Origin: a candidate division WOR-3 bacterium
GTDB lineage: Bacteria; Hydrothermota; UBA3072
Assembly: GCA_039804165.1 (NCBI GenBank)
Contig: JBDRZZ010000048.1
Coordinates: 1 to 5,490, forward strand
DNA: 5,490 nucleotides
Reading direction: 5' to 3'
The notes beneath the pieces were generated by a model. That model was not told the DNA's origin. It worked only from the letters and a program-made list of their open reading frames with translations, and searched no databases. Within the stretch, counting starts at the first letter, position 1; the number at the start of each line of letters is the position of its first letter. This document shows, piece by piece, positions 1-5,490 of this stretch. The position numbers and the translations under genes were made by a program.

Positions 1-61
1 TAAAATACAGGGTGTAGTTATGAAAATTTTGGTGTAAATTGTAATTTAAGGAGGTTATGTA

Positions 62-454
62 ATGAATAGAGGTATAAGGATGATTAAGAAATCAACTATC
101 ATACTAATATTCCTTGTTTTCCCGATAATTGCGAAAGCAGAACCATACAAGCCTTATCCCATATTATTTGTTCATGGTCTTGGGGCACATTCGGGAACCT
201 GGGGAGCACCTACGATTTCCAGAAGCGACTTTATTCCTAAAGATTCAGTTAGATCAGATCACACCTATGACCATTTCCTTGATTATATGACGCCCTATGC
301 AATTGAGTGGTGGAGAGTAGATAAGAGTTATACTCATCCTGACTCTTCACCCGCCTACCCCAACAAAACCTTTCTTGAGGGAGGGAATTCGTTATCCGTG
401 AACCGTTGTCCGTTTTCCGTAAAAAGGAAAAATAATGGAGAGGAGAAAAAATGA
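62..454 (+). CDS. Exported N-terminal fragment of an alpha/beta-hydrolase (lipase-like), copy 1
   Basis: 130-aa ORF starting 7 nt after AAGGAGG (48-54). Residues 1-26 form a Sec signal peptide: charged n-region, the hydrophobic stretch IILIFLVFPII, then cleavage after AKA. A mature N-terminus with PILFVHGLG follows, whose His38-Gly39 is the usual oxyanion-hole motif of lipase/esterase-type alpha/beta-hydrolases. Homology with copy 3 ends near PNKTFLE (about residue 107). The rest is read from unrelated repeat DNA. There is no nucleophile elbow, catalytic acid or His, so it cannot be a working hydrolase on its own. Its TGA overlaps the ATG of the next gene (ATGA, 451-454), giving possible translational coupling. 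It is either a decayed gene or a short secreted peptide. An alternative start is Met7 (position 80), which has a weaker ribosome site. Confidence 0.75.
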   Translation: MNRGIRMIKKSTIILIFLVFPIIAKAEPYKPYPILFVHGLGAHSGTWGAPTISRSDFIPKDSVRSDHTYDHFLDYMTPYAIEWWRVDKSYTHPDSSPAYPNKTFLEGGNSLSVNRCPFSVKRKNNGEEKK

Positions 455-469
455 AAAATTTAAGATTTA
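391..469 (+). repeat. Dispersed 79-bp translation-start cassette, copy A
   Basis: Matches 5172-5250 at 76 of 79 positions by eye. It contains four CCGT cores exactly 7 nt apart (396, 403, 410, 417), then a purine-rich ribosome site GGAGAGGAG, an ATG at 451, and the start of an AT-rich 7-nt repeat. It sits exactly where lipase homology stops in unit 1 and supplies the start of the downstream lipoprotein gene. Confidence 0.8.
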
Positions 470-500
470 AAACTTACAATTTACTATTACAAATCTTCAG
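451..500 (+). repeat. AT-rich heptanucleotide repeat inside the lipoprotein start, copy 1
   Basis: Cores ATTT/ACTT/ATTA/ATCT fall at 458, 465, 472, 479, 486 and 493, a strict 7-nt spacing. The same periodic block occurs at 4236-4281 and 5239-5267 upstream of other genes, but here it is translated. Because 7 is not a multiple of 3, it encodes a non-repetitive basic peptide beginning MKNLRF. Confidence 0.75.
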
Positions 501-1347
501 CCGAAAGATAGGGGTAGGAATTAGTTTAGTAATTATTGGATTAATTTTCAATGGGTGTAGTCATTGGGAAGAGGAAGAGTTTTTTTATCATTCTCCGAAT
601 TGGACGAGTGATGGGAGGGTAGTGTTTGTGAAAGAGATAAGGGTTTGGAAGTGGGAGAGGAGTATTTTTGGTGAGAGTGCTCATATAAAGAGTGAGCGGA
701 CGTGGTTGTGTGAGGTGAATGCAGATGGTAGTGGGATGGAGGAGAAGGGTTTTTTATTTGATGATCCTGCACAGGGGATAAATTCTACATCTTCTGCTGG
801 GGATTGGGTTGTTTTAGGGGATGTTCATTACAACAGTATTTGGGTCATAAGAAGGGATGGGACTGGCTTACAGAAAGTAGGAGAAGGGCAGAATCCTGAT
901 TTTTCTCCTGATGCTTCAAAGATTGTTTATGAGAAGCCTGGAGAGGGGATATGGATAATGGATAGGGATGGAGGTAATGACCACCAGATTATTGCGGATC
1001 CTGATGCGAAATATCCTGCGTGGAGTCCGGATGATACGTTGATTGCGTATGGGTATGGTAGTGTACATATTTATAATTTGATTGCAAGCCAACAAGTAAG
1101 GGAATTTAATTATTTGTATTTCCCGGATTGGTATTCGAATGGAAAGTTTGTATCTATTTGTGCCTCACCAGAATATGATGGAGGTATTGATATAGACATA
1201 TATAACGACCAAATTGATACGCTTCGTCAAATTAGTTCAGGTTACTATCTTAAAGTTTCCTCGGATGGTAATAAATTTGTAGCTTACGATGGTTCCTGGT
1301 TTGTAATTAACCGTGATGGGACGGGCAAATGGTATTTGAGGCCATAA
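451..1347 (+). CDS. PD40/TolB-type beta-propeller lipoprotein, copy 1
   Basis: 298 aa. The hydrophobic segment 20-33 ends in FNGC with Cys36, a loose lipobox, so this is a probable envelope-anchored lipoprotein. The mature part carries WD40-like/PD40 beta-propeller motifs. Examples are PNWTSDG (about 49-55), PDFSPDASKIVYE (149-161) with the following IWIMDRDG strand, PAWSPDD (189-195), PDWYSNG (225-231), and a final strand ending in VINRDGTGKWYLRP. Such propellers usually bind protein partners or glycans; the partner is unknown here. The N-terminal 19 residues come from heptad-repeat DNA. The sister gene at 5279 starts downstream of the equivalent sequence, so this gene appears to have recruited an upstream ATG with its GGAGAGGAG site. 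It overlaps the lipase fragment by 4 nt. Confidence 0.85.
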   Translation: MKNLRFKTYNLLLQIFSRKIGVGISLVIIGLIFNGCSHWEEEEFFYHSPNWTSDGRVVFVKEIRVWKWERSIFGESAHIKSERTWLCEVNADGSGMEEKGFLFDDPAQGINSTSSAGDWVVLGDVHYNSIWVIRRDGTGLQKVGEGQNPDFSPDASKIVYEKPGEGIWIMDRDGGNDHQIIADPDAKYPAWSPDDTLIAYGYGSVHIYNLIASQQVREFNYLYFPDWYSNGKFVSICASPEYDGGIDIDIYNDQIDTLRQISSGYYLKVSSDGNKFVAYDGSWFVINRDGTGKWYLRP

Positions 1348-2712
1348 AATACAGGGTGTAGTTATGAAAATTTTGGTGTAAATTGTAATTTAAGGAGGTT
1401 ATGTAATGAATAGAGGTATAAGGATGATTAAGAAATCAACTATCATACTAATATTCCTTGTTTTCCCGATAGTTGCGAAAGCAGAACCATACAAGCCATA
1501 TCCGATATTATTTGTTCATGGTCTTGGGGCAAGTTCGGGAACCTGGGGAGCTGGCACCTATATATTTGGTGATAATAGAACAGATTCTCTTAATTTAGAT
1601 TCGATACCTGATGGAGGCACCTATGACCATTTCCTTGATTATATGCATCCGTATGCAATTGTTTGGGACGAGGTCGACTCAACTTACGCGCATCCAGGAG
1701 GAACTCCGGCACATCCTAAGCCAGATCCCGCCTACCCCAACAAAACCTTTCTTGAGGGAGGGGATAGAAATTGTGGGATGAGCTGAGAGTGTAAAAAGGA
1801 GGGAGAATGAAAGATTTAAGGTTTCAAATTTTTAGTAGGAGTATCAAGAAGATATGGAATGGAATAATTATTGGGATATTGATTATTATCTTTGGAGGGT
1901 GTGGTAGGGAATGGGAGGAGAGGCATGTTAGTTATCATGCTCCTAATTGGACCTCAGATGGGAGAATAATATTTTTTGAAGAGATTTGGATTCAGAGGCT
2001 AAAGGAGGGTATTGATGGTCCTATAGTAATAAAGGAGACACAAGAGTTCACATTATATGAGGTAGATAATAGAGGTGTGGATTATGAGGAGATAGGGGAG
2101 GTATGCAATAGTGAGAGAGGTTTTTTTTCTATAGAGGGTAGTTCTTCTGCTGGGGAATATGTAGTTTTTGGTCTTTCCGGGATTGGAAATAATGATAATG
2201 AGATTTGGGTGATAAAGAGGGATGGGACAGGATTACAGAAAGTAGGAGAAGGGCAGAATCCTGATTTTTCGCCTGATGCTTCGAAGATTGTTTATGAGAA
2301 GCCTGGAGAGGGGATATGGATAATGGATAGGGATGGGAGTAATGACCACCAGATTATTGCGGATCCTGATGCGAAATATCCTGCGTGGAGTCCTGATGAT
2401 ACGCTGATTGCGTATGGGGAGTATTCCACTCATATTGCTAATTTAGAAGGCAATTCTATAAGAGAATATTCAAGTTGGTGGTTTAGAGATTGGGGTCCTT
2501 TAGGTAGTAATATGGTTATGGCGACAAATCCTTATGGACTTACAGTTACCATAAATTTTATTTCTGAAGTTATAGATACCATAAGTGTTTTTGTCACTTA
2601 TGAATCAGGAAGTGGATATAAATGGTCTCCGGATGGTAATGCTTTTATTGGATACGATGGCAATTGGTTTGTAATTAACCGTGATGGGACGGGCAAATGG
2701 TATTTGAGGCCA
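1345..2712 (+). repeat. Tandem array unit 2 (truncated lipase + PD40 lipoprotein)
   Basis: Second unit, 1368 bp, in direct orientation. The join between units is highly conserved: 1297-1551 and 2665-2919 are the same length (255 bp) and nearly identical, covering the propeller C-terminus, spacer and lipase start. A second shared block, 841-1053 against 2206-2418, differs at about 11 of 213 positions by eye. Between these blocks the units differ by many substitutions and indels. Confidence 0.9.
1406..1786 (+). CDS. Exported N-terminal fragment of an alpha/beta-hydrolase (lipase-like), copy 2
   Basis: 126-aa ORF with the same AAGGAGG leader, the same signal peptide (cleavage after AKA, residue 26) and the same PILFVHGLG oxyanion segment as copy 1. 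After GTWGA the sequence diverges in composition and length (an insertion containing TYIFGDNRTD). It returns to the shared TYDHFLDYM, diverges again, and returns to PAYPNKTFLEGG. It stops nine residues after NKTFLE, close to where copy 1 leaves lipase homology, and lacks the nucleophile elbow. It is therefore a truncated hydrolase, possibly a pseudogene or a short secreted protein. The truncation points of copies 1 and 2 agree closely, so the cut probably predates the duplication. The next gene starts 20 nt downstream. Confidence 0.75.
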   Translation: MNRGIRMIKKSTIILIFLVFPIVAKAEPYKPYPILFVHGLGASSGTWGAGTYIFGDNRTDSLNLDSIPDGGTYDHFLDYMHPYAIVWDEVDSTYAHPGGTPAHPKPDPAYPNKTFLEGGDRNCGMS

Positions 2713-2715
2713 TAA
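1807..2715 (+). CDS. PD40/TolB-type beta-propeller lipoprotein, copy 2
   Basis: 302 aa, starting after AAGGAGGGAG (about 1797-1806). Hydrophobic segment 19-29 leads to FGGC with Cys32, a loose lipobox, so it is a likely lipoprotein. The propeller motifs match copy 1: PNWTSDG near the N-terminus, PDFSPDASKIVYE, IWIMDRDG, PAWSPDD, a divergent WGPLGSN blade, YKWSPDG, and the same VINRDGTGKWYLRP end. The centre and the last 16 residues are almost identical to copy 1 at the DNA level, while residues about 35-130 and 210-285 are diverged. The first codons (MKDLRFQIF) still show degraded 7-nt periodicity, with ATTT/GTTT/ATTT at 1814, 1821 and 1828. The start thus derives from the same repeat type as copy 1. 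The ligand is unknown. Confidence 0.85.
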   Translation: MKDLRFQIFSRSIKKIWNGIIIGILIIIFGGCGREWEERHVSYHAPNWTSDGRIIFFEEIWIQRLKEGIDGPIVIKETQEFTLYEVDNRGVDYEEIGEVCNSERGFFSIEGSSSAGEYVVFGLSGIGNNDNEIWVIKRDGTGLQKVGEGQNPDFSPDASKIVYEKPGEGIWIMDRDGSNDHQIIADPDAKYPAWSPDDTLIAYGEYSTHIANLEGNSIREYSSWWFRDWGPLGSNMVMATNPYGLTVTINFISEVIDTISVFVTYESGSGYKWSPDGNAFIGYDGNWFVINRDGTGKWYLRP

Positions 2716-3341
2716 AATACAGGGTGTAGTTATGAAAATTTTGGTGTAAATTGTAATTTAAGGAGGTTATGTAATGAATAGAGGTATAAGGATGATTAAA
2801 AAATCAACTATCATACTAATATTCCTTGTTTTCCCGATAGTTGCGAAAGCAGAACCATATAAGCCTTATCCGATATTATTTGTTCATGGTCTTGGGGCAA
2901 GTTCGGGAACCTGGGGAGCCAAATGTGATACATTTCCAAAAGGAAGTAGAAACAGTAGATTTACTGATAGTATCATTAATCTGGACTCAGATCACACCTA
3001 TGACCATTTCCTTGATTATATGACGAAATATGCGTGGGCTTGGTATGATTGGGAAAAAGAGCAGGGATTAGAGCGTACTTATACACCAGATACCAACGCT
3101 CCTATTACCGGTCCTCGTTTCCCCAACAAAACCTTTCTTGAGGTGGTGAATTTTGATGACAATCGGGGGAGTATCGACCCGGACCCTCATTATCCTAACT
3201 TTAACGGTCAGGGAGATGAATTATGGCACAGGGTGAAAGATGTGCTTGATGAGTATTATGGTGAAGGACAATGGCAGAATGACCGAAACGCAAAAGTAAT
3301 TCTCGTTGGTCATTCGATGGGAGGATTAGCAGGAAGGCAGG
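2713..3341 (+). repeat. Tandem array unit 3, interrupted
   Basis: Third direct copy, starting with the same 207-bp block (2713-2919; about 3 mismatches to unit 2). It keeps more of the lipase gene than units 1 and 2 but ends abruptly at about 3341, where the minus-strand DUF2283 gene ends. No propeller gene follows in the expected place. Confidence 0.85.
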
Positions 3342-3382
3342 CTATAATTTTATTCCTTTCCTCTTACTTGTATTTAGTATAG
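2774..3382 (+). CDS. Alpha/beta-hydrolase (lipase-like), copy 3, 3'-truncated by the minus-strand module
   Basis: 202-aa ORF and the most complete lipase in the window. It has the signal peptide (1-26), PILFVHGLG with the HG oxyanion motif (38-39), TYDHFLDYM, then a region missing from copies 1 and 2 (NGQGDELWHRVKDVLDEYY). It ends with VILVGHSMGGLAGRQA, the classical G-x-S-x-G nucleophile elbow with Ser181. This pattern fits secreted lipases/esterases of the PGAP1-like or class-2 lipase type. Homology should continue for another 100 or more residues to the catalytic Asp and His. Instead the last dozen residues (IILFLSSYLYLV) are antisense of the DUF2283 gene. The enzyme is therefore broken and almost certainly inactive. 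No remainder of the lipase is visible downstream, so sequence was lost as well as inserted. Confidence 0.8.
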   Translation: MNRGIRMIKKSTIILIFLVFPIVAKAEPYKPYPILFVHGLGASSGTWGAKCDTFPKGSRNSRFTDSIINLDSDHTYDHFLDYMTKYAWAWYDWEKEQGLERTYTPDTNAPITGPRFPNKTFLEVVNFDDNRGSIDPDPHYPNFNGQGDELWHRVKDVLDEYYGEGQWQNDRNAKVILVGHSMGGLAGRQAIILFLSSYLYLV

Positions 3383-3584
3383 TTATGCCTACCGGTTCTT
3401 CTTTTTCGTATCTGATTATTATGTCATCCTCAGTTATTTCGGAATCGTCCGCATGACTGGGTTTTTTAAAGTTAATGTATAACACATCAGCTTCCTTGTC
3501 ATAAGTTGTCCATATCCTTGGATATGGGATATCTAATATTCCATGGACAAGGTTTAATACTTTTTTTACTTCTACCGTTCCCAT
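3342..3584 (-). CDS. DUF2283 family protein, putative antitoxin partner
   Basis: 80 aa when started at the ATG at 3584, which has AGGAGG (3593-3598 on the minus strand) 8 nt upstream. A start 11 codons further up (3617) has no comparable site and lies inside the upstream gene's original reading frame. The core TTYDKEADVLYINFKKP, followed by ITEDDIIIRYEKEEPVGITILNTSKR, is typical of DUF2283: a small beta-rich protein of unproven biochemistry, often found next to small nuclease-like or DUF4258 genes. It is downstream of the PBECR2-like gene on the same strand, and in the unbroken frame the two would overlap by 13 nt. An antitoxin role is inferred from size and context only. Its TAG stop lies right at the junction with the lipase gene. 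Confidence 0.82.
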   Translation of the reverse strand: MGTVEVKKVLNLVHGILDIPYPRIWTTYDKEADVLYINFKKPSHADDSEITEDDIIIRYEKEEPVGITILNTSKRKGIKL

Positions 3585-3661
3585 ATTTTTTTCCTCCTTT
3601 TTAGCTGCTTCTTGCATCTTGTTAAAAAGGCTGTTATAACAAATCCATCTTTTTTACTTAA
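3572..3661 (-). pseudogene. Out-of-frame C-terminal remnant of the PBECR2-like gene
   Basis: Immediately after the stop of the upstream ORF, the neighbouring frame reads LSKKDGFVITAFLTR followed by a basic tail (KKQLKRRKKIWER) and stops with TAG at 3572-3574. DGFVITAF is the expected last beta-strand of PBECR2 proteins, directly after the VVVY strand where the ORF now ends. The span 3572-3879 is 308 nt; one extra base would make 309 nt, a 102-residue protein of normal family size. One lost base near 3661-3666 explains the break. The recovered frame also overlaps the DUF2283 start, as expected for a coupled pair. Confidence 0.75.
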
Positions 3662-3879
3662 TTCTCTTTATATACCACTACTATATATTTACCTGCTTCT
3701 ACTTCCTTTACCGCTAAAAATTCACCTGTTTTACCTTTGTAAATAACTTCTGGTTCTTCAAGGGTTTCGAGGACCTCAAAATAATAACCAGCCATTTCCG
3801 AGTGTTCTTCTGTTATGTGAAACCATCTTTCTTCAGTTGACCTTATAGGTACGCCGTTCTTTGATTTTGCAATATCCAT
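3658..3879 (-). CDS. PBECR2-like nuclease-fold protein (putative toxin), frameshifted
   Basis: 73-aa ORF. The pattern GVPIRSTEERWFHITEEH, then EVLETLEEPEVIYKGKTGEFLAV, then GKYIVVVYKE resembles PBECR2. That family is part of the barnase/EndoU/colicin E5-D/RelE-like nuclease fold found in phage polyvalent proteins and in small stand-alone genes. Family assignment is from memory of these motifs. The ORF ends right after the VVVY strand, and the missing strand is in the next frame (see 3572-3661). The protein as encoded probably lacks part of the fold and is inactive, unless the frameshift is a sequencing error. It lies upstream of the DUF2283 gene, consistent with a toxin-antitoxin-like pair. 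No Shine-Dalgarno precedes the ATG; the promoter lies so close that the mRNA may be almost leaderless. Confidence 0.7.
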   Translation of the reverse strand: MDIAKSKNGVPIRSTEERWFHITEEHSEMAGYYFEVLETLEEPEVIYKGKTGEFLAVKEVEAGKYIVVVYKEN

Positions 3880-3890
3880 CTTTTAATTTA

Positions 3891-3919
3891 AAGATATATC
3901 GAATGATTTGGTTTGTCAA
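3891..3919 (-). promoter_or_regulatory. Candidate promoter for the PBECR2-like/DUF2283 pair
   Basis: On the minus strand TTGACA (3914-3919) is followed after 17 nt by TATCTT (3891-3896), or after 15 nt by TATATC (3893-3898). Either puts transcription start within about 10 nt of the ATG at 3879, leaving no room for a ribosome site. The consensus -35 and the position make this the best promoter in the window, but it is only a sequence match. Confidence 0.5.
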
Positions 3920-4132
3920 CTATGGAGTATTGAGGGTAAGAAGTTTAGCTACTGAAAGGATGGTAGTTGTTCGATTTTGATAGGGTATGGTATAGAGAAA
4001 GCGTAAAAATCCAATTCAATGGAGTCGGTGGGTTGACTGTGATTAGCATTTCTGTTATAATTGTAATCAGGGTATAGTTGATAGGGTAGTAGGGTATAGA
4101 AAAAATTGGCGGCCAAAAGCGTGAGAAAAGGC

Positions 4133-4159
4133 TTGACAAGAGAAAAAATTTATTATAAC
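4133..4159 (+). promoter_or_regulatory. Candidate promoter upstream of the LolA-like gene
   Basis: TTGACA (4133-4138) is followed after 15 nt by TATAAC (4154-4159). A perfect TATAAT lies at 4166-4171, but 27 nt from the -35 box. Spacing is not ideal for either. The site lies about 135 nt before the ATG at 4294, just after the palindrome at 4106-4116, which could be an operator. Confidence 0.35.
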
Positions 4160-4178
4160 TATAAGTATAATTCAGTGT

Positions 4179-4222
4179 ATAGTTGATAGGGGATAGTAAT
4201 GAGAATATTAAATAGGAGATAG
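4179..4222 (+). repeat. ATAG-core heptad repeat
   Basis: ATAG at 4179, 4186 and 4193 (spacing 7) and again at 4212 and 4219 (spacing 7). A related patch lies at 4074-4099 with ATAG at 4074, 4081 and 4096, and another at 5085 and 5099 (spacing 14). Confidence 0.6.
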
Positions 4223-4235
4223 GAAAATGGGATTA

Positions 4236-4281
4236 AAAAATTTAGAATTTACAACTTACAATTTAAAATTTCAAATCTTTA
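4236..4281 (+). repeat. AATTT-type heptanucleotide repeat before the LolA-like gene
   Basis: Cores ATTT/ACTT/ATCT at 4240, 4247, 4254, 4261, 4268 and 4275, exactly 7 nt apart, ending directly before the ribosome site of the next gene. Closely similar to 451-500 and 5239-5267. Confidence 0.8.
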
Positions 4282-4293
4282 GCTGGAGGTGTT

Positions 4294-5076
4294 ATGAAAA
4301 AGTTAAGATTACTCTTTTTCTTGTTTCTCAGTGTTTCAGTTTATTCCGATGAATTAGAAGATGTTATCTCTGCCTTACAGAAAAACATAGATAAAGTCCA
4401 GGATTTGCAATGTTCTGCTCTAATGAGTATAGATATGGGTGAGATGGGGACGTATACTCAGTCAATGAAATTGTGGACTAAAGGGAGGGATAAGATGAGG
4501 ATGGAGATGGAGGCTTCTCCGGGTTTATCAGTTAATCCATCTCCAATGGGGCAGAAGGCAACTTCTGGGAAGGTGAGGATGATTATAAATGGGGATAAGG
4601 TAATTATGGAAAGTGAAGGGAAGAGAGAGGTGCTTTCCTCAGATGGTTCTTCGCTTTATCGTAGGCAAGCTGCACCTCCTGGGGGAGATTTCCAGCGGGA
4701 TTTTAGGGAGTTTTTAAAGCAGAATAAAGTATCTATTGTTTCGAGGAAGAAATCAGTGATCAAGAATTTACTTTCAAGGAGTGAGCCACCCAAAGAGGTT
4801 GTTCTTGAGGTAGTCCCCAAAGAGAAAGATCCGATTGTTCAGAAGATAGAGATGACAGTTGATATGGAAAGGGGAGTCATCACCAATCAAAAGATGTTTT
4901 CTAATTATGGGACAACAAAGATGGATATGGAATATGAGAATATAAAAGGTGTATGGGTGATTAAAAGGATAAATATGATTATTCCGACACCAATGGGAAA
5001 AGCCGGAAAGATGACGATTGAGTATAAGAATGTGAAACTGAATGAGGGAATAAGCGATAGGTTGTTTATGGAGTGA
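4294..5076 (+). CDS. LolA-like outer-membrane lipoprotein-sorting protein
   Basis: 260 aa, with GGAGG at 4285-4289 as ribosome site (short 4-nt spacing). Residues 1-18 form a signal peptide with probable cleavage after VYS, giving a periplasmic protein. The mature part looks like the LolA/LolB-type half-barrel superfamily (COG2834-like). It has an N-terminal helix (LEDVISALQKNIDKVQDL), then strands such as MKLWTKGRDKMRMEMEA, MIINGDKVIMESEGKREVL and KEVVLEVVPKEKDP. The last strands include MTIEYKNVKLNEGISDRLF, a characteristic family ending. These proteins bind lipids or lipoproteins in the periplasm. This one is longer than the canonical chaperone and may serve a dedicated substrate. The neighbouring PD40 lipoproteins are possible clients, but that is only inferred from position. 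It reads as an intact gene. Confidence 0.75.
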   Translation: MKKLRLLFFLFLSVSVYSDELEDVISALQKNIDKVQDLQCSALMSIDMGEMGTYTQSMKLWTKGRDKMRMEMEASPGLSVNPSPMGQKATSGKVRMIINGDKVIMESEGKREVLSSDGSSLYRRQAAPPGGDFQRDFREFLKQNKVSIVSRKKSVIKNLLSRSEPPKEVVLEVVPKEKDPIVQKIEMTVDMERGVITNQKMFSNYGTTKMDMEYENIKGVWVIKRINMIIPTPMGKAGKMTIEYKNVKLNEGISDRLFME

Positions 5077-5101
5077 GGCAGGGTATAGAAAAGAGGGGAT
5101 A

Positions 5102-5143
5102 GTAATTGGAAAGTGAAAAATGAAAATTGGAAAGTGCAAATTG
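5102..5143 (+). repeat. Six-unit GAAAGTG-type heptanucleotide tandem repeat
   Basis: Read in steps of seven from 5102: GTAATTG, GAAAGTG, AAAAATG, AAAATTG, GAAAGTG, CAAATTG. Every unit ends in TG and the spacing is exact, with no coding signal. Confidence 0.8.
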
Positions 5144-5171
5144 AGTAAAATAATAGCCATGGAGGGGATAT

Positions 5172-5250
5172 GTTATCCGTTAACCGTCCTCCGTTTTCCG
5201 TAAAAAGGAAAAATAATGGAGAGGAGAAAAAATGAAAAATTTAAGATTTA
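5172..5250 (+). repeat. Dispersed 79-bp translation-start cassette, copy B
   Basis: Near copy of 391-469 (three mismatches by eye, all among the CCGT heptads). CCGT cores lie at 5177, 5184, 5191 and 5198, followed by GGAGAGGAG and an ATG at 5232. Here the ATG opens only an 11-codon ORF, because the downstream repeat contains a stop. Confidence 0.8.
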
Positions 5251-5267
5251 CAATTTCAAATCTTTAG
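5232..5267 (+). CDS. 11-codon leader ORF in the start cassette
   Basis: The ATG at 5232 has the same strong GGAGAGGAG site used by the lipoprotein at 451. It encodes MKNLRFTISNL and stops at TAG 5265-5267, 11 nt before the next start. In unit 1 the homologous stretch has no stop and runs into the lipoprotein. This is most likely a by-product of the repeat, or an upstream ORF that feeds ribosomes to the gene at 5279. There is no evidence the peptide itself has a role. Confidence 0.35.
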   Translation: MKNLRFTISNL

Positions 5268-5278
5268 CGGGAGGGTAT

Positions 5279-5490
5279 ATGAGAAAAATATGGGTAGGGA
5301 TTAGTTTGGTAATTGTTTTGTGGATGTTTACTGGTTGTAGTATAGAAGTTACCGAGTACACGAAAGCAAAAGCTCCGAACTGGACATCGGATGGTAAGAT
5401 AGTTTTTATAAAAGACTACAATTATGTTAAGATTAGCCATTCACTTTTTGGGACAATGGATAATGTTGAAGGGAGTTATGAGGTTTTAAC
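5279..5490 (+). CDS. PD40-type propeller lipoprotein, 5' part (runs off the window)
   Basis: Open from the ATG at 5279 to the window end (70 codons and 2 nt), preceded by GCGGGAGGG as ribosome site. The signal segment WVGISLVIVLWMFTGC gives Cys20 in an F-x-G-C lipobox like those of copies 1 and 2. APNWTSDGKIVFIKD follows, matching the first propeller motif of the array copies. The signal region matches copy 1 closely at the DNA level (GGGATTAGTTTGGTAATT against GGAATTAGTTTAGTAATT), so it belongs to the same paralogous family. Later residues diverge. Unlike copies 1 and 2 it keeps its own ATG and ribosome site downstream of the heptad repeat, probably the ancestral layout. Confidence 0.8.
   Translation, partial: MRKIWVGISLVIVLWMFTGCSIEVTEYTKAKAPNWTSDGKIVFIKDYNYVKISHSLFGTMDNVEGSYEVL

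Follow-up and report, generated by a model that had tools for sequence, protein, structure and literature searches.

Several heptanucleotide families coexist in single genomes in the STRR sequences of cyanobacteria, as they do in the genome described here. Among long repeats, heptanucleotides form the most abundant class in most genomes, and slippage at a 7-nt polymerase contact has been proposed (Mrazek, Guo and Shah 2007, as cited in PMC4679880 and PMC4692102). In Xanthomonas and Nostoc, heptad arrays are scarce between divergent genes and differ among close species in how long they are and in their sequence, and three repeated heptanucleotides are found in Calothrix (PMC4692102). The bacterial preference for 7-nt repeats is a long-standing question. 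The window considered here, 5,490 nucleotides from a candidate division WOR-3 bacterium, is the whole of a small contig (C48) in a draft genome (G000) of 1.96 Mb, 34% GC and 49 contigs.

Heptad arrays and their position in the window

The lag-7 identity of each stretch cited in the initial annotation was compared with that of 500 dinucleotide-preserving shuffles (Table 1). The 7-nt period was borne out in seven of the eight stretches, the exception being the ATAG-type stretch at 4074-4099; calling it strict was too strong, since the arrays of the window hold 3-7 copies of units that are merely 67-83% alike. Lag 7 ranked first in both 396-500 and 5077-5278 (z 6.0 each), and it shared that place with lag 14 in 3880-4293 (z 2.9). 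No lag-7 signal was present in the main parts of three coding sequences, and none of the ATAG arrays in the window was reported by TRF. An exact threefold ATAGNNN is also present on contig C15. The CCGT block is duplicated within the window (5173-5256 versus 392-475, 94% identity), and part of the copy at 5173-5256 matches C46:5379-5430 at 83%.

Table 1. Heptad arrays of the window and the paralogous array on C15, with lag-7 identity over the span given (shuffles or p value in brackets).
Array	Position	Strand	Lag-7 identity	TRF, period 7	Remarks
CCGT-type (CCGTGAA CCGTTGT CCGTTTT CCGT)	396..420	+	0.73 over 396-417 (0/500 shuffles)		pattern matches at 396-413 and 403-420
AATTT-type	451..500	+	0.69 over 458-493 (0/500 shuffles)	457-492	in first 17 codons of predicted lipoprotein/PD40-like ORF 451-1347 (MKNLRFKTYNLLLQIFS)
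AATTT-type, shortest	1807..1835	+			at start of ORF 1807-2715 (MKDLRFQIFS); placed by alignment
ATAG-type, weak	4074..4099	+	0.53 (p 0.074)		indistinguishable from shuffles
ATAG-type	4179..4222	+	0.57 (p 0.004)		three clear units at 4179-4196
AATTT-type	4227..4282	+	0.83 over 4240-4275 (0/500 shuffles)	4237-4276	main array of the initial annotation; upstream of LolA-like gene 4294-5076
GAAAGTG/AAATTGG-type (AAANTGN)	5102..5144	+	0.74 over 5102-5143 (0/500)	5110-5144	three AAANTGN pattern matches in 5108-5143
CCGT-type, second copy	5172..5201	+	0.67 over 5177-5198 (p 0.004)	5172-5201	
AATTT-type	5232..5267	+	0.73 over 5239-5260 (p 0.002)	5236-5261	two units fewer than at 451
AATTT-type, C15 paralogue	C15:1159-1208				

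The comparison of consensus units covered every rotation and both strands. The AATTT unit (AATTTAC) and the GAAAGTG-type unit (AAATTGG) agree at 6/7 positions in the best rotation, and ~3% of random AT-rich heptamer pairs match at least as well, so that these two may belong to a single family; CCGT and ATAG are separate. The four unrelated families originally described are therefore three or four: AATTT, CCGT and ATAG stand apart from one another, but AATTT is close to the GAAAGTG type. When arrays were counted over all loci, with a looser threshold and coding arrays included, the 303 arrays yielded 189 distinct consensus heptamers, indicating that the period is common to the arrays and the sequence is not. 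A search of the genome with the pattern AATTTANAATTTNNAATTT gave just two matches because the arrays are degenerate.

The left part of the window (1-3382) is a tandem series in which the start of a lipase-like gene appears three times (62, 1406, 2774). Lipase-like copies 1 and 2 are truncated to stubs (130 and 126 aa), each followed by a PD40-like lipoprotein gene, and constant and variable blocks alternate in a manner resembling gene families shuffled by recombination. On the minus strand, 3342-3879 carries a DUF2283 gene (Pfam E 6.9e-14), in the opposite orientation to the rest, together with a small 73-aa gene lacking a Pfam match. The right contig end (5282-5490) is identical to C15 at 206/209 positions, and a repeated gene thus probably terminated the assembly there.

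The arrays had initially been regarded as not coding, 7 being out of frame with codons. This holds only in part: AATTT arrays occupy the first codons of three predicted lipoprotein genes (the ORFs at 451 and 1807 and the C15 paralogue, MKNLRF...QIFS...), and heptad arrays form in-frame loops in C33 and C46. At the gene starts, translation from the upstream ATG is suggested by the open frame and by a purine-rich stretch before the ATG. Between common borders the five AATTT arrays differ in length by 0, 7, 14 or 21 nt. The distance from the ATG to the common right border is 50 nt at 451, 29 nt at 1807 and 50 nt on C15, and the 21-nt difference between the ORFs at 451 and 1807 equals three units or seven codons. 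To the same border, the array at 5232 measures 36 nt, 14 nt less than at 451; its ORF runs straight into a stop codon (MKNLRFTISNL*), and another ATG lies at 5280, 12 nt past the array. The downstream gene and its C15 copy are identical at 206/209 nt, and the two arrays differ by 14 nt. The array at 4227 has its own ATG (4227), which does not share the frame of the LolA-like gene.

By analogy with hmw1A, the number of heptads at a gene start might set the frame or the expression of the lipoprotein gene, making the arrays contingency loci. Such a role would agree with the upstream ATG sharing the frame of the gene at array lengths of 50 and 29 nt but not at 36 nt, where the gene has another ATG just downstream, and with the prediction that the genes encode lipoproteins. 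However, the units are degenerate and switching should be slow, and arrays elsewhere adjoin unrelated genes and lie in 3' gaps, with no start-codon bias. Unit-number variation at gene starts was seen solely between paralogues (14 and 21 nt), and we consider contingency loci unlikely.

Distribution within and beyond the genome

Heptads were scanned in 584 kb sampled from the 1.96 Mb genome. The bulk intergenic autocorrelation (400 kb) was weak at lag 7 (0.3053, versus 0.2948-0.3067 at lags 5-9) owing to the sparseness of the arrays, and arrays were therefore counted instead. Nine non-coding lag-7 arrays were found, compared to 0.65 expected and a maximum of 3 in 20 shuffles, while other lags gave 0-6 arrays and lag 14, a harmonic, gave 7. 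An excess beyond the locus, as initially anticipated, was thus obtained: several arrays fall on C48, C46, C33, C15 and C8, and several sequence families share the 7-nt step. The excess is not confined to the locus, yet it is modest and clustered on few contigs.

Ten relatives (~616 kb) contained 43 non-coding lag-7 arrays, versus 0.2 in shuffles (maximum 2), a rate that is not unbiased for the phylum as several of these genomes were chosen via an earlier pattern match. The comparison of lag with lag, which is less affected by the choice of genomes, gave 0-13 arrays at other lags and 26 at the harmonic lag 14. Heptad-rich relatives include G048, G027, G045, G124 and G026; no heptad arrays were present in the stretches sampled from G013 and G014.

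Four successive copies of the pattern GNAAANTG were found in at least 117 stretches. Around ~80 AAANTGN bait loci, other non-coding heptad arrays numbered 83, versus 25 at lag 8 and 11 at lag 9; lag 14, the harmonic of 7, gave 60, and the remaining lags gave fewer than lag 9, the range over all lags other than 7 and 14 being 1-25. Lag 8, and to a lesser extent lag 9, is raised in some genomes too, so the preference for 7 is not exclusive. A position-specific code in AAANTGN was considered and rejected, the arrays found independently of the pattern having weak concentration at its free positions. Across this genome and its relatives the preference does not depend on sequence and extends into putative translated starts and protein loops, and the AAANTGN family spans, by record titles, ~16 phyla among the 80 matches listed.

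Chance periodicity in AT-rich intergenic DNA could produce the one ATAG stretch that lies within the shuffle range. As an account of the arrays in general it is contradicted by the shuffle controls and by the neighbouring lags, and we regard it as extremely improbable. Tandem 7-nt units occur beyond chance and are commoner than neighbouring unit lengths, as in heptad SSRs. Long perfect runs, which are typical of such SSRs though not required by broader usage of the term, are absent from the window; perfect heptad runs do occur in some relatives, for example G124.

Probable unit duplication and possible block replacement

In long arrays, neighbouring units resemble one another more closely (0.854) than they do once their order is permuted (0.807; 0/1000), which is predicted by local duplication and is not predicted by selection for a fixed consensus. 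Several homologous arrays (G048, G045 and L151) differ by an alignment gap of exactly 7 nt. In alignments of homologous arrays 1-3 nt gaps outnumber 7-nt gaps, and the 7-nt peak is present both outside and inside the detected array borders. Divergent gaps hold 20 arrays versus 44 expected (about half), and no concentration near start codons was found (40/21/33/24 arrays by quarter of gap), which together make a general role in promoters or 5' leaders less likely.

The depletion of arrays from divergent promoter gaps also speaks against the idea that a regulatory protein or RNA binds the arrays and reads them in 7-nt steps. Some families, such as AAANTGN, do combine fixed and free positions in the way that a binding site might, in a pattern that the search itself imposed. 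Against this, the 189 heptamers share no common core, and in arrays found without a pattern the variation is not limited to the free positions; a binding function is very improbable.

We favour, with moderate confidence, the interpretation that the arrays are degenerate heptanucleotide tandem repeats, local cases of a class widespread in bacterial intergenic DNA. Segments of any sequence would be duplicated in 7-nt steps, likeliest by replication slippage or misalignment, and the duplicated units would then diverge through point mutation, giving many unrelated families with one period. Heptad blocks are additionally copied elsewhere and, at some sites, seem to be replaced by other heptad blocks. 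Arrays would persist where harm is small: in gaps between tandem genes, at the starts of genes and in the surface loops of exported proteins; gaps with divergent promoters would hold them more rarely. The period, the many families, the length differences in unit steps, the likeness of adjacent units, the dispersed copies and the scarcity in divergent gaps are observed directly. We infer that slippage is the source, that the polymerase is the reason for 7, and that the arrays have no dedicated function. A point against this reading is that G000 yielded few arrays of the perfect, young kind that ongoing slippage would produce. The data fit a sequence-independent 7-nt process, and the idea of a common process favouring 7-nt units, put forward in the initial annotation, is supported, yet it had already been proposed in the literature.

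Slippage and point mutation alone leave unexplained the apparent replacement of whole arrays at some orthologous and paralogous sites. In the paralogues on C33 and C46, whose flanks are 89% and 96% identical, the same in-frame loop holds AGCTCAC- and GGGTATA-type heptads, respectively, and a 38%-identical homologue in G004 has, at the protein level, no evident heptads at that loop. The sister genomes G048 and G040 are ~91-97% identical over five syntenic stretches. Twenty arrays were examined; eight or nine could not be cleanly placed, and no replacement rate is given for this reason. Unrelated heptad blocks occupy the same site in the two genomes at L110:6523-6670 (flanks 98.7% and 95.6%), at L111:13736-13947 and probably at L297:15158, which is less clear. 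Another three arrays are equal in length, with just one or two differing positions, a single 7-nt unit difference occurs at L305:14836, and two arrays are interrupted by insertions in G040, one of them palindrome-like. Whole arrays seem to be replaced, beyond what slippage alone would do, in these few cases, with some chance of draft-assembly error.

At L111 and L281 in G048 and G040, the intergenic gaps consist of heptad arrays and dispersed hairpin-like repeats in a mosaic (for example GTAGGAGCGACTTC...), some hairpins being inserted inside arrays. In two Prevotellaceae records with flanks 87-88% identical (L133:1848-1895 and L182:463-535), one carries TTTTCAC heptads and the other carries inverted CCTTAA-type hexamers around CCATCCGGATGG.

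The replaced blocks could be small mobile or exchangeable cassettes, moved by recombination or by an unknown kind of insertion, in which case the period would reflect cassette structure and would not be a trace of slippage. The unrelated blocks of the sister genomes and the differing heptads of the C33 and C46 loop fit such cassettes, as do parts of the L110 block, which are present in >40 copies in G040. However, inspection by eye of the G048/G040 replacement sites revealed neither shared ends nor a target-site duplication or an associated transposase, local gain and loss of units occurs as well, and the replacement cases are few and all from metagenome assemblies. We consider cassettes possible but rather improbable, with degenerate tandem repeats remaining the preferred reading. 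We also put forward, tentatively and as a doubtful proposal, that heptad blocks are exchangeable modules, swapped wholesale at a given gap or loop for blocks of unrelated sequence with the period retained, and faster than the flanking genes diverge. If this is true, some process would write or swap 7-nt-periodic DNA, and would not merely expand existing repeats. Comparison of sister genomes offers a way to tell simple slippage directly from block replacement.

Comparison with known heptad systems

Rickettsia palindromic elements are tolerated in frame within proteins, as are the arrays here, but they are palindromic and form a fixed family, whereas the present arrays are tandem heptads. The ATCTTTC repeats of the Haemophilus influenzae hmw1A promoter likewise have a 7-nt unit in variable number near a gene start; they are regular, with 20-24 repeats reported and demonstrated effects on expression (PMC8262952), while the gene-start arrays here are known from sequence comparison. 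The TAACTGA repeats of Beggiatoaceae are also intergenic heptads, often near start codons, but they consist of a single fixed heptamer, unlike the degenerate arrays and many families of this study (PMC4679880). The GGGAATC and GGGGA(C/T)T repeats of Xanthomonas and Nostoc share with the present arrays a scarcity in divergent gaps and the lack of a clear function, and differ in that each genome has one G-rich, G-quadruplex-forming family, compared to multiple AT-rich families here (PMC4692102). The heptanucleotide repeats of Mrazek et al., as that work is cited in PMC4679880 and PMC4692102, resemble those of this locus in their 7-nt unit, mostly intergenic location, many families and proposed slippage; they were counted as longer-than-chance repeats, whereas here the units are imperfectly alike and families lie side by side. 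The locus belongs to an already known class, and among its readings it is block replacement that deserves to be followed up.
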